Shown here piece by piece: positions 12,040 to 18,928 of a DNA stretch of 64,000 bases. This DNA comes from Streptomyces sp. V3I8 (GTDB taxonomy: Bacteria; Actinomycetota; Actinomycetes; Streptomycetales; Streptomycetaceae). The position numbers and the translations under genes were made by a program. Location: contig NZ_JAUSZL010000002.1 in NCBI RefSeq assembly GCF_030817535.1, forward strand, positions 3,720,001-3,784,000, written 5' to 3'. The notes below the pieces were generated by a model. It did not search any database, was not told the origin of the DNA, and worked only from the letters and a program-made list of their open reading frames with translations. Each line of letters opens with the position of its first letter. Within the stretch, counting starts at the first letter, position 1.

Positions 12040-12054
12040 TATACGACCGGTCTA
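12040..12054 (-). promoter_or_regulatory. NemR-like operator, site A
   Basis: Read on the minus strand: TAGACCGGTCGTATA. It ends 21 bp before the MFS start codon at 12076 and overlaps a TAATAT -10-like hexamer (12053-12058). It matches site B over all 15 bases. Confidence 0.75.
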
Positions 12055-12075
12055 ATATGCCGTACTGTCGAGCTC

Positions 12076-13491
12076 ATGGGAACTCGACAACAGACCCTCG
12101 CGCACGCACCGCACCTCGGCCTCCGGCATGACAGGGTTCGCGACAGCGGCCCCGCACGGCCGCGCCGGGACGGAGAGCCGGCCGCGACGGCACACGCTCC
12201 AGCGGCGATCACGGGCAACGCCTGGGTACGGCCCGCCGCCGCGATCCTCGTCGTGGGATGGGGGGCGAACATGTTCGCGGCCCTGTTGCAGATCTACCGC
12301 GGACAGTTGAGCGGACTCCAGGTCAACGGCCTGTTCGGGTCGTACGCCCTCGGGCTCGTCCCGGCCCTGCTGATCATGGCGAAGGTCTCCGACCGCCTCG
12401 GTCGGCGACGGGTGCTCCTCGCGGCCCTGCTGCTCTCCGCGCTCGGGTCGGTGGTGATCCTCTTCTCGGGCGGAGCATTCGGGACGATCCTCGCAGGCCG
12501 GATCATCGTCGGAGTCAGCGCCGGTTCGGCGTTCGGGCCCGGCACGGCATGGATCAAGGAACTTTCCGACGCGGGGCGGGCAGCAGGAGCGGGAGCGCGG
12601 CGCTCGGCAGTCGCGCTGACGGCAGGTTTCGCGGCCGGCCCGTTCGTGTCCGGGATCATCGTCCAGTGGTTCCCTTCACCGGAGACCGCGGCCTACCTCG
12701 TACACATCGCACTCGTCGCGCTGACGGTGCCGGCCGTTTGGAGAGCTCCCGAGACGGCCCGGCCACACGTCGGACCGGTCAGCCGTCGCGGCACGGCGAC
12801 CGACGCAACCGGCACGGGCACGGGCACGGCCGACGCAGCAGGCACCACAGGCAGGGCAGGCACCACAGGCAGGGCAGGCACTGCAGGCACGGCAGACACG
12901 GCACGCGGTGGGCTGAGGGCGGCGCTGACCAGCCGGGTCTTCCTGACCGCGGTGCTGCCGACGGCTCCGTGGGTCTTCGGAGCCGCAACCGTGGCGCTCG
13001 CGGCGCTCCCCGTCCTGGTGCCGTTGGGGCATTACGGCCCTGTCGGCAGCGGCACCGTCGCCGCCGTCACGCTGGGCACCGGCATCATGATCCAGCCGCT
13101 GGCGCGCACTCTGGCAGAACGCTCACCGGCGACACCGTTCCGTGCGGGTATGGCAGCTGCGATCGTCGGCATGCTCGTCGCGGCCCTGACCGTCGCGACC
13201 GGCTCGCTCGTCCTCCTGGTCGCCACCGCCGTCATCCTGGGTTCGGCCTACGGGCTGCTCCTGGTGAGCGGTCTGCGGCTGGTGGAGTCGCTCGTCCCCC
13301 CGCAGGACGTGGCCACAGTGATCGCGATCTTCTACGGCCTCACCTACGTCGGGTTCGCCGCCCCCGTCCTCGTACAGGCACTGAGCAGCTTCTGGAACCC
13401 GGCCACCGTGCTGGTCGCCGGGTCCGCGCTGGCGGTCATCTCCCTGACGGCGACCTTCTTCGCCTGGCCGCGGACGACCGTCGACGACTGA
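12076..13491 (+). CDS. MFS transporter (putative efflux)
   Basis: A 471-residue major-facilitator protein with about 12 hydrophobic segments. The loop after helix 2 carries a motif-A variant, KVSDRLGRRR. The central cytoplasmic loop (about residues 235-275) is expanded by Gly/Thr/Ala repeats of the type GTTGRA, encoded by near-exact nucleotide repeats. The first ~50 residues are low complexity and the true start might be slightly later, but no better ribosome site was seen. It is the first gene after operator site A, followed by the hydrolase 90 bp downstream with its own operator, so it probably belongs to the NemR-like regulon as an exporter of toxic electrophiles. The substrate is unknown. 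Confidence 0.85.
   Translation: MGTRQQTLAHAPHLGLRHDRVRDSGPARPRRDGEPAATAHAPAAITGNAWVRPAAAILVVGWGANMFAALLQIYRGQLSGLQVNGLFGSYALGLVPALLIMAKVSDRLGRRRVLLAALLLSALGSVVILFSGGAFGTILAGRIIVGVSAGSAFGPGTAWIKELSDAGRAAGAGARRSAVALTAGFAAGPFVSGIIVQWFPSPETAAYLVHIALVALTVPAVWRAPETARPHVGPVSRRGTATDATGTGTGTADAAGTTGRAGTTGRAGTAGTADTARGGLRAALTSRVFLTAVLPTAPWVFGAATVALAALPVLVPLGHYGPVGSGTVAAVTLGTGIMIQPLARTLAERSPATPFRAGMAAAIVGMLVAALTVATGSLVLLVATAVILGSAYGLLLVSGLRLVESLVPPQDVATVIAIFYGLTYVGFAAPVLVQALSSFWNPATVLVAGSALAVISLTATFFAWPRTTVDD
12780..12910 (+). repeat. In-frame repeats in MFS central loop
   Basis: GGCACCACAGGCAGGGCA occurs twice back to back near 12838-12873, followed by degenerate GGCACTGCAGGCACGGCA-type copies. All are in frame and encode Gly-Thr-rich linker between the two six-helix halves of the transporter. 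Confidence 0.75.
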
Positions 13492-13519
13492 CGCTTGACG
13501 CTTGATGCTTGACTTGCAG

Positions 13520-13534
13520 TAGACCGGTCGTATA
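13520..13534 (+). promoter_or_regulatory. NemR-like operator, site B
   Basis: TAGACCGGTCGTATA, the exact reverse complement of site A, lies 47 bp before the start of the haloperoxidase-type hydrolase in the 90-bp gap after the MFS gene. Confidence 0.75.
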
Positions 13535-13581
13535 GAAATAACCCAAGAGAAGCACCGCACACCCCCGAAAGGACAAGCACC

Positions 13582-14418
13582 ATGGGAAGCATCAAGGTCG
13601 GCACCGAGAACAGCACGGACATCGAGCTGCACTACGAGGACAAGGGATCGGGCCAGCCGGTCGTACTGATCCACGGCTACCCCTTGGACGGCAACTCCTG
13701 GGACGGACAGACGGCGGCCCTCCTGGACGCCGGCTACCGGGTCATCACCTACGACCGACGCGGCTTCGGCAAGTCCAGCCAGCCCTCCACCGGCTACGAC
13801 TACGACACCTTCGCGACCGACCTGCACACCGTGCTGGAGACCCTCGACCTGCGCGACGCGGTCCTCGTCGGCTTCTCGATGGGCACCGGAGAGGTCGCCC
13901 GCTACCTGGCCAAGCACGGCTCCGCACGCATCGCCAAGGCCGTGTTCCTGGCCTCCCTGGAGCCGTTCCTGGAGATCACCGACGACAACCCCGACGGTGC
14001 CGCGCCCGCCTCCTTCTTCCAGGGCGTCTCCGACGCGGTGAAGAAGGACCGCTACGACTTCTTCACCGACTTCTACAACGACTTCTTCAACCTCGACGAG
14101 AACCTCGGCACCCGCGTCAGCGAAGCGGCCGTCCGCAACGCCTGGAACGTCGCCGCCGGCTCCGGAGCCATCGCCTCGGCCGCCGCCCCCCTCGCCTGGC
14201 CCACCGACTTCCGCGCCGACATCCCCAAGATCGACGTCCCGGCACTGATCGTCCACGGCACCGCCGACCGCACCCTCCCCATCGACGCCACCGGCCGCCG
14301 CTTCGCCAAGGCCCTGCCCACCGCCCAGTACGTCGAGATCGACGGCGCGCCCCACGGACTGATCATCACGCACACCGCCGAAGTCAACGAAGCCCTCCTG
14401 ACCTTCCTCGGACAGTGA
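13582..14418 (+). CDS. Alpha/beta hydrolase, cofactor-free haloperoxidase (perhydrolase) type
   Basis: A 278-residue alpha/beta hydrolase similar to bromoperoxidase-A/non-heme chloroperoxidases. The oxyanion-hole segment is LIHGYPLDG (about 29-37), the nucleophile elbow is GFSMGTGE with S99, the acid segment is [10 protein letters not shown] and the histidine is in GAPHG. ATG at 13582 follows GAAAGGA. Such enzymes hydrolyse esters and can make peracids. Its start is preceded by operator B, so induction together with DJ-1 proteins and the exporter suggests detoxification of an ester or lactone-type electrophile, which is inference. Confidence 0.9.
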
Positions 14419-18209: not shown

Positions 18210-18230
18210 GATTATCTCCGTGTAGATAAG

Positions 18231-18245
18231 TAGACCGGTCGACTA
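18231..18245 (+). promoter_or_regulatory. NemR-like operator, site D
   Basis: TAGACCGGTCGACTA, 21 bp upstream of the start of DJ-1 copy 2, the same spacing as sites A and E to their genes. Confidence 0.75.
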
Positions 18246-18298
18246 ATACTGGACAAAGGGAAGCTCGCACTTCCCCACTCGACGTGAGACTGCTGGAC

Positions 18299-18892
18299 TC
18301 AGAGGTGGAGGAGCTGCCGTGTCACAGTCATGACGGTGTCCATTGGCGCGATGCTGCGATGGATCTTGGCCATGATGCTCCCGCCGAGCCACATGTCGTA
18401 CAGGGCCTGCGCCGTCTCGCGGGGATCGCCGTCCACCGCGATCGACCCGTCCGCGAGCCCACTGACGATCATGCGCTCGATACGGTCGACGATCCCGCCG
18501 GTGCCGTCCTTCAGGGCGAGCCGCATCGACTCCGACAGGTCGGCGACTTCGGCGCCGAGCTTCACCGCGAGGCACTTGCCCTGACACTCGTCGACGCTCT
18601 GCGTCTCCTGCCACTGCCGCCAGTACGCCATCAGCCGCTCGGCGGCCGACGTGTCGGGCTGCGCGAGAAGGCGGTCCATGTCGGAGAGGTACTCGTCGAA
18701 GTAGCTCTTCAGGAGCGCTTCACCGAAAGCGTCCTTGGAGGCGAAGTAGTGATAGAAGGAACCCTTCGGCACACCGGCCTCTGCGAGCACCTCGTTGATG
18801 CCGACCGCGGAGTAACCCTTGTGGGCCATGGTCCGCTGAGCGACATCAAGGATGCTCCGGCGGGTGTCGGTACTGCGTGCGGTAGCTGGCAT
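18299..18892 (-). CDS. NemR-like TetR-family redox/electrophile-sensing repressor
   Basis: A 197-residue TetR protein. The helix-turn-helix VLAEAGVPKGSFYHYFASKD (36-54) and the body (CLAVKLGAEVADLSE, ALYDMWLGGSIMAKIHRS) closely follow my recollection of Escherichia coli NemR. In NemR, C106 and K175 form the reversible sulfenamide switch for reactive chlorine and electrophiles; here C107 and K176 occupy the equivalent places, with an extra C103. ATG at 18892 is chosen over the longer frame at 18910, which would enter the operator. Site E in its own promoter implies autoregulation; sites A-D suggest it controls the MFS, hydrolase and both DJ-1 genes. Confidence 0.88.
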   Translation of the reverse strand: MPATARSTDTRRSILDVAQRTMAHKGYSAVGINEVLAEAGVPKGSFYHYFASKDAFGEALLKSYFDEYLSDMDRLLAQPDTSAAERLMAYWRQWQETQSVDECQGKCLAVKLGAEVADLSESMRLALKDGTGGIVDRIERMIVSGLADGSIAVDGDPRETAQALYDMWLGGSIMAKIHRSIAPMDTVMTVTRQLLHL

Positions 18893-18913
18893 GACGTAAA
18901 CGTAACACACGAT

Positions 18914-18928
18914 TAGACTAGTCGTCTA
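18914..18928 (+). promoter_or_regulatory. NemR-like operator, site E (autoregulatory)
   Basis: TAGACTAGTCGTCTA is a palindrome with arms TAGAC/GTCTA, 21 bp upstream of the repressor start. It is the most symmetrical of the five sites and defines the likely half-site. Confidence 0.75.

Follow-up and report, generated by a model that had tools for sequence, protein, structure and literature searches.

The closest described systems are those of two TetR-family repressors, CurR of Pseudomonas aeruginosa and NemR of Escherichia coli. CurR (PA2196) reportedly responds, in the wording of a paper title (Gene 2024;927:148754), to hypochlorite and N-ethylmaleimide (NEM), and the bromofuranone with which its gene has been connected is an electrophile. 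A passage of one report (PMC3447867) places PA2196 among the genes induced by that bromofuranone, and passages of two reviews (PMC7464077, PMC5297802) assign NemR C106, together with K175, to reactive chlorine and NemR C21 and C116 to electrophiles. The DNA analysed here, referred to as the window, is a stretch of 64,000 nucleotides from Streptomyces sp. V3I8 (contig NZ_JAUSZL010000002.1, positions 3,720,001 to 3,784,000), in which an earlier note had described a NemR-like repressor with five matching operators before the genes for an MFS transporter, a hydrolase, two DJ-1 proteins and the repressor itself. We consider it probable that these genes belong to a stress regulon of the CurR/NemR kind, in which a repressor dimer would occupy a 15-bp operator and be released by an oxidant or electrophile. 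The operators with their scarcity elsewhere in the genome and their recurrence next to related repressors, the conserved residues of the protein and a promoter-like pair at the haloperoxidase-like hydrolase gene are properties of the sequence itself; binding by the repressor and the identity of the inducer (hypochlorite or electrophiles) are what we infer from them.

All five sites of the window were found at the exact positions reported in the earlier note. Operator E (TAGACTAGTCGTCTA, 18914–18928, plus strand; TAGACGACTAGTCTAAT on the gene-sense strand) lies 21 bp before the repressor gene (18299–18892, minus strand), which encodes 197 amino acids from an ATG at 18892, matches Pfam TetR_N and TetR_C_13 and falls in the CurR/NemR clade. 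Operator D (TAGACCGGTCGACTA, 18231–18245, plus strand) lies 21 bp before DJ-1/PfpI copy 2 (17523–18209, minus strand), the gene directly downstream of the repressor. Operator C (TAGACCGGTCGTCTT, 14531–14545, minus strand) stands 83 bp before DJ-1/PfpI copy 1 (14629–15327, plus strand), and operator B (TAGACCGGTCGTATA, 13520–13534, plus strand) stands 47 bp before the alpha/beta hydrolase gene (13582–14418, plus strand), in the orientation opposite to that of the other four. Operator A (again TAGACCGGTCGTATA, 12040–12054, minus strand) lies 21 bp before the gene of the MFS transporter (12076–13491, plus strand; Pfam MFS_1), a likely exporter that is tied to the set by this operator only. The spacing of 21 bp between sites A, D and E and their start codons was likewise borne out with the repressor ATG at 18892; an alternative GTG start at 18910 would give 203 amino acids and nearly abut operator E. 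The full-motif search pattern TAGACNNGTCG, used for the window, the whole genome and the 80 repressor loci described below, was found five times in the window against 0.40 expected, and five matches were reached in 0 of 100 shuffles. The looser pattern TAGACNNGTC, scanned in the window with one mismatch, was not enriched (24 observed against 38 expected), so only the full motif is meaningful. Chance as the origin of the five sites was rejected on the basis of the window shuffles, the genome count against a reversed control and the count of the core motif.

The genome scanned comprised 9,319,798 bases in 4 contigs (9.32 Mb). Both genome-wide counts were favourable to the regulon. Ten matches to TAGACNNGTCG were obtained against 42 for the reversed control, of which five are in the window, two are at further genes of the set and three are elsewhere (L007, L008 and L009). 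The core CGACYRGTCTANT, which was derived from the known sites, both those of the window and distant ones, and whose count therefore measures specificity and is not an independent discovery, occurs seven times, against two for its reversed control, and each occurrence is upstream of a member of the set: five belong to the window, one to a second repressor gene and one to a second haloperoxidase/DJ-1 operon. A scan with the pattern TAGACNNGTCGTCTA at one mismatch gave nine matches, namely the five of the window, a pair at C2:3953828 and C2:3953850, one at C2:8379016 and one on C1. The second repressor (repressor 2; C2:3953222–3953797) is 62% identical to the window repressor, shares its CxxxC and recognition-helix stretch, has two sites before its gene, including an eighth site, TAGACAACCGGTCTACT, with one core base changed, and has an amidase gene downstream on the same strand. 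Downstream of the site at C2:8379016 lies an operon in which a second haloperoxidase-like gene, 91% identical, is combined with a third copy of DJ-1, 92% identical. The predicted regulon of the host comprises eight sites and two repressors; the five-site set proposed earlier was present but incomplete, as it lacked three further sites, the second repressor and a third copy of DJ-1. The C1 site (C1:3429, TAGACGGGTCCTCTA, L012) was judged a chance match, there being no gene of the set among the nearby frames. By eye, the TAGACNNGTCG matches of L007 (1501–1511; C2:3963110) and L008 (1501–1511; C2:5398610) lie between genes of other kinds and that of L009 lies inside a gene; all three lack the core CGACYRGTCTANT, yet may still be weak sites.

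Relatives of the repressor were sought in named genomes by means of a six-repressor alignment; 578 were confirmed, and the best 80 loci (60 from Pseudomonadota and 20 from Actinomycetota; 1.21 Mb in total), a choice biased to close relatives, were examined. Here too the outcome favoured the regulon, as TAGACNNGTCG was present in 79 of these 80 best loci. They hold 153 sites; the reversed pattern gave 15 matches there, and permuted patterns gave 4, 2 and 2. In 69 of the loci a site falls between -200 and +60 relative to the repressor match; among the other 11, ten carry one before a different gene of the set type or before a second repressor, and one (L110) has none. Sites were assigned to a gene when at most 260 nt from its start, 40 nt inside the gene being permitted, and 141 of the 153 could be assigned in this way to the repressor (73), DJ-1 (52), old yellow enzyme (OYE; 11), iron-dependent alcohol dehydrogenase (ADH; 4), amidase (3), CurA-like (3) and BPO (1) genes, six sites being counted for two genes and 12 matching no recognised gene. 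The labels OYE, ADH, CurA and SDR are by-eye names given to reference proteins drawn from the same loci. Relative to the nearest gene, 135 of the 141 assigned sites are oriented alike. In these 135 sites, positions 4–7 and 10–14 of TAGACGACYGGTCTA were fixed by the search pattern, so that their perfect conservation is uninformative; among the free positions, T (0.93), A (0.99), G (0.94) and A (0.92) prevail at positions 0–3 and G (0.93) at position 9, and a T two bases past the operator end was found in 0.98 of the sites. Enrichment of T was also seen some 13–17 bases before the operator (L046–L125), at 0.57–0.72 for 46 DJ-1 sites and 0.82–0.91 for 11 OYE sites, and is possibly the terminator end of the preceding repressor gene.

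In a survey of 295 Streptomyces genomes (repressor cut-off E≤1e-60, ten candidates scored per genome) the repressor was uncommon, occurring in 16 genomes with the host included, and a site at no more than one mismatch was present in all 15 of the others (27 matches in sum against 12 for the control). In a second sample of 61 genomes, in which a repressor was counted as present at E≤1e-40, the pattern TAGACYRGTCGTCTA at up to one mismatch was found in 18, including 5 of 5 with the repressor; summed matches were 16 against 5 for the control in repressor-bearing genomes and 22 against 44 in repressor-free ones. In two Streptomyces genomes without a repressor homologue at this cut-off (L129 of G020 and L135 of G027), TAGACCGGTCGTCTA at 1501–1515 and a second similar box stand before a WrbA-like gene, the first 106 residues of whose product scored 78 and 76 bits, respectively, against the WrbA quinone-oxidoreductase model (cut-off 132.5). 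Relatives of the repressor (E≤1e-30) also occur on 350 plasmid records, 218 of them from Acinetobacter and 36 from Pantoea; NZ_CP108009.1 (L204) is one such record.

In the repressor tree the actinomycete proteins form one group (99/99) beside the proteobacterial ones. This group contains a supported branch of seven (98/94) to which repressor 2 belongs and in which every locus has an amidase gene; the other nineteen, the window repressor included, are weakly united (94/69) and mostly accompanied by DJ-1. One locus of G032 (L127, contig 199, about 1501–1650) shows an operator followed, by eye, by first codons of the repressor-2 type that continue directly into the interior of an amidase gene, an apparent deletion. 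An alternative compatible with the proposed regulon, and in our view somewhat improbable, is that the window operators are read mainly by repressor 2, or by both repressors, in which case deletion of the window repressor alone would leave the set uninduced. It draws on the two sites of the same kind before the repressor 2 gene, on the shared CxxxC and recognition-helix stretch and on the place of repressor 2 in a sister branch whose loci bear the same operator. However, among ten candidates scored per genome only one repressor copy was found at E≤1e-60 in each of the 15 other Streptomyces genomes, so that one suffices there, and the window repressor adjoins its targets.

The solved structures nearest to the window repressor were 3rd3 (213 bits) and 4l62 (212 bits), both at about 1e-62 and both of which we take to be PA2196, followed by 3knw (139 bits) and NemR 4yze (138 bits). 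The CurR model NF058643 gave 251.1 bits, which is under its curated cut-off of 300. By these scores the repressor is closer to CurR (PA2196) than to NemR, and the identity first given to it as NemR-like has to be revised. Its helix-turn-helix domain scored 53.8 bits against PF00440 TetR_N (cut-off 24), as a member of the TetR family does. Translated from the ATG, the protein has only two cysteines, C103 and C107 (CxxxC), and also K176. C107 and K176 align with NemR C106 and K175, as the earlier note had stated, and both occur without exception in the 86 sequences compared; C103 is conserved in 57 of them and in 23 of the 24 actinomycete sequences picked for the count. The 86-sequence set contains both members of two pairs from the same species (L051/L041 and L057/L043). 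This correspondence extends to the bleach part of the NemR switch only, a limit that the earlier note had missed: the positions of NemR C21 and C116 are occupied by M and A in the window repressor, and cysteine is found there in 0 and 5 of the 86 sequences, respectively. The sensing of methylglyoxal and quinones through C21 and C116, as in NemR, is therefore not transferable to the window repressor. A recognition-helix stretch, PKGSFYH, is common to the window repressor and NemR; it was given little weight because stretches of this type are frequent among TetR proteins.

The operator TAGACGACYRGTCTA has 15 bp and the E. coli K-12 nemR site TAGACCGACTGGTCTA has 16 bp; both have the arms TAGAC...GTCTA, which stand one bp closer together here, the NemR side of this comparison being a single promoter. 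Among the papers searched, the operator strings occurred in none on a bacterium, the only matches being three human-cell papers, as judged by title; nor did the literature listings include a paper on this regulon. Upstream of the haloperoxidase-like genes the site is reversed and has the variant form TAGACCRGTCGTATAG in 6 of 6 operator-bearing regions, two of them from this genome. The end of TAGACCRGTCGTATAG forms TATAGT (TATAGA in the window), and a TTGNNN hexamer stands 17 bp before it (16 bp in the window) in all six regions. In the window this promoter-like pair (TTGACT, 16 bp, TATAGA; 13509–13536, plus strand) overlaps the end of operator B with its second hexamer. Such a pair would explain why the variant base is kept at the haloperoxidase gene, and it suggests a repressor that covers the spacer and the -10 box there; repression by steric block is probable on this arrangement.

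The hydrolase of the earlier note is indeed a gene with an operator, but its identity and the reversed setting of site B had been overlooked. Its product matched the haloperoxidase BPO-A2 (1bro) over full length (463 bits, E 3e-138, residues 4–277), and its GFSMG, GTADRT and GAPHG stretches aligned with the active-site stretches of 1bro, which assigns it by homology to the BPO-A2 family of cofactor-free haloperoxidases/perhydrolases. Haloperoxidase-like genes were found at 20 loci in 13 of the 61 genomes, and TAGACNNGTC was present within 300 bp upstream of four of these: the window gene, the second copy in the same genome, and those of G050 and G047, all with at least 84% identity and in genomes with the repressor. 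The sixteen loci without the operator include homologues at 52–76% identity (e.g., L172 at 70%) and a further copy of the host genome at 91% (L170). Two more operator-bearing cases were found, one in G136 (L213) and the other on a linear plasmid of Streptomyces sp. NBC_00334 (L204); in each, the hydrolase, repressor and DJ-1 genes stand in a row with a site each.

The DJ-1 proteins group with 1u9c, 4p5p and the glyoxalase III 4lru (PF01965, 50.5 bits), in the glyoxalase-III-like branch, and alignment to 1u9c and 4p5p revealed that the cysteine elbow VCHAPG is kept. At the DNA level, copies 1 and 2 share 99.4% identity over 673 bp, and copy 3 has about 95% identity over the roughly 520 bp compared. 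Simple tandem duplication of these genes was rejected, as copies 1 and 2 have opposite orientations and copy 3 is 4.6 Mb distant. A DUF1330 gene (15324–15629, plus strand; Pfam DUF1330) overlaps the end of DJ-1 copy 1 and is probably in one operon with it; a DUF1330 gene is also near DJ-1 in the repressor loci L049, L094, L103, L208 and L211. A regulon role for the DUF6461 and SnoaL-like genes between the DJ-1 copies was dropped, as they have no operator upstream. The MFS gene is absent from the table of the 80 best repressor loci. Across operator A it diverges from a muconolactone-isomerase-like gene (11606–11923), with an IclR-type regulator (10573–11547) beyond. Neither OYE nor GloA, the neighbours expected of a nemA/gloA arrangement of the NemR type, was found among the ten proteins scanned between 10573 and 18910.

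The mechanism proposed from these data is as follows. A two-cysteine TetR-family dimer would bind the pseudo-palindrome TAGACGACYRGTCTA and the T two bases on, and would thereby hold its own gene, both DJ-1 genes, the gene of the BPO-A2-type haloperoxidase/perhydrolase and the MFS gene; sites of this kind are also present at two other chromosomal places (repressor 2 with the amidase, and the second haloperoxidase with DJ-1 in one operon). At the haloperoxidase gene the site would lie over the spacer and the -10 box, so that RNA polymerase would be excluded. An oxidant or electrophile, likeliest hypochlorous acid or a related reactive species, would modify C107, either by a C107–K176 bond as in NemR or by a C103–C107 disulfide, and the modified repressor would leave the DNA, inducing the set including the repressor itself. 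Once induced, the DJ-1 proteins would clear reactive carbonyls; export of a toxic product may fall to the transporter, and the hydrolase may serve in the opening of lactones or esters or in the handling of peroxide or peracids. The switch chemistry and the work of each target are inferred; as a prediction of binding, the regulon is highly likely to be real.

Several observations weigh against this interpretation or parts of it. Scanning of 11900–19000 for a consensus promoter flagged none, and no clear promoter could be recognised upstream of the four target genes of the window other than the haloperoxidase-like gene. One arm of site C is weakened, and the distance to its gene is 83 bp. A further haloperoxidase copy of the host genome, 91% identical (L170, region of G000 C2:962670), is without the operator; a remnant of the DJ-1 C-terminus follows it by eye, as if a copy of the operon had shed most of its DJ-1 gene. 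The scans above support a repressor with matching operators as a regulon, but the MFS gene has no support from relatives, as the remaining 60 genomes searched yielded none of its kind at E≤1e-60 (1 of 61, the window's own), and as a true target it would depend on site A in one genome. The NemR residues for electrophiles, C21 and C116, are lacking in the window repressor. In a passage of PMC7950407, the NemR homologue PA14_36300 of P. aeruginosa PA14, which is not equated here with PA2196, is described as not responsive to hypochlorous acid (HOCl), and its authors mention there that an earlier study had seen PA14_36300 induction. A similar motif is present in 13 of the 56 sampled genomes without a close repressor; since the sites before the WrbA-like genes occur without one, another TetR regulator may read a similar or related paired box.

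It is also conceivable, and to us quite unlikely, that the regulon is the same but responds to one particular small molecule (a lactone, quinone-like or aromatic metabolite) in place of an oxidant or electrophile; the hydrolase, transporter and DJ-1 proteins would then process or export that compound, and the conserved cysteines would be structural. TetR proteins usually bind ligands; moreover, the start of the MFS gene is 152 bp from the divergent muconolactone-isomerase-like gene (11606–11923), the IclR-type regulator beyond it scored 105 bits against the PcaR/PcaU model (cut-off 285), with BhcR higher at 135, and the hydrolase scored 97 bits against the 3-oxoadipate enol-lactonase model (cut-off 256). 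However, the target sets of the relatives vary (DJ-1, OYE, CurA-like, iron-ADH, amidase), with the handling of carbonyls and electrophiles and not one pathway as the common theme, and neither C107 nor K176 varies in any of the 86 sequences. That the repeats were spread by DNA duplication or a mobile element, and not by selection for repressor binding, is highly improbable, since the near-identical DJ-1 copies (99.4% and about 95% in DNA) and the copied haloperoxidase/DJ-1 pair are set against a haloperoxidase site whose separate variant TAGACCRGTCGTATAG is retained in all 6 upstream regions compared and against sites at repressor promoters in two phyla.

Beyond release of the repressor by an oxidant or electrophile, a wider reading may be put forward, rather doubtfully, in which one highly specific operator code extends across Actinomycetota and Pseudomonadota, two paralogous CxxxC repressors that sense different reactive species read it in this cell, and the haloperoxidase/perhydrolase has been captured by it in a minority of Streptomyces. 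If this were true, the real task of this enzyme would lie in the response to reactive chlorine or electrophiles and not in the making of halogenated antibiotics. An operator recognisable from sequence in two phyla would make the targets of many unstudied CurR/NemR-like repressors readable from their genomes, and the two switch chemistries that are joined in NemR would appear apart here, as the C106/K175 pair alone with a second cysteine.

In comparison with the CurR/curA system of P. aeruginosa, the window repressor is alike in its nearest structures (3rd3 and 4l62) and nearest NCBIfam model, and CurA-like genes, so named by eye, are operator-bearing neighbours in some related loci; it differs in scoring below the CurR cut-off of 300, and the window targets are DJ-1, the haloperoxidase-like hydrolase and the MFS gene, unlike curA. 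With the E. coli NemR/nemRA-gloA system it shares homology over most of its length (138 bits), the C106/K175 pair and the operator arms. It departs from NemR in an operator of 15 and not 16 bp, in the absence of C21 and C116, in an extra cysteine four residues before C107, in targets that stand on separate operators whereas the E. coli set is one operon, and in having DJ-1 and not nemA as the neighbour of the repressor. The hydrolase resembles the cofactor-free haloperoxidases in its full-length match to 1bro with the active-site stretches; within this family the operator was found, in the 61-genome sample, only upstream of homologues at least 84% identical to the window protein. As in a regulon of the CurR/NemR type, the predicted operators stand at the repressor's own gene and at detoxification genes, and the predicted regulon is, judged from sequence, a CurR/NemR variant in which the operator spacing is distinct, the sensor has two cysteines and one target is unusual.

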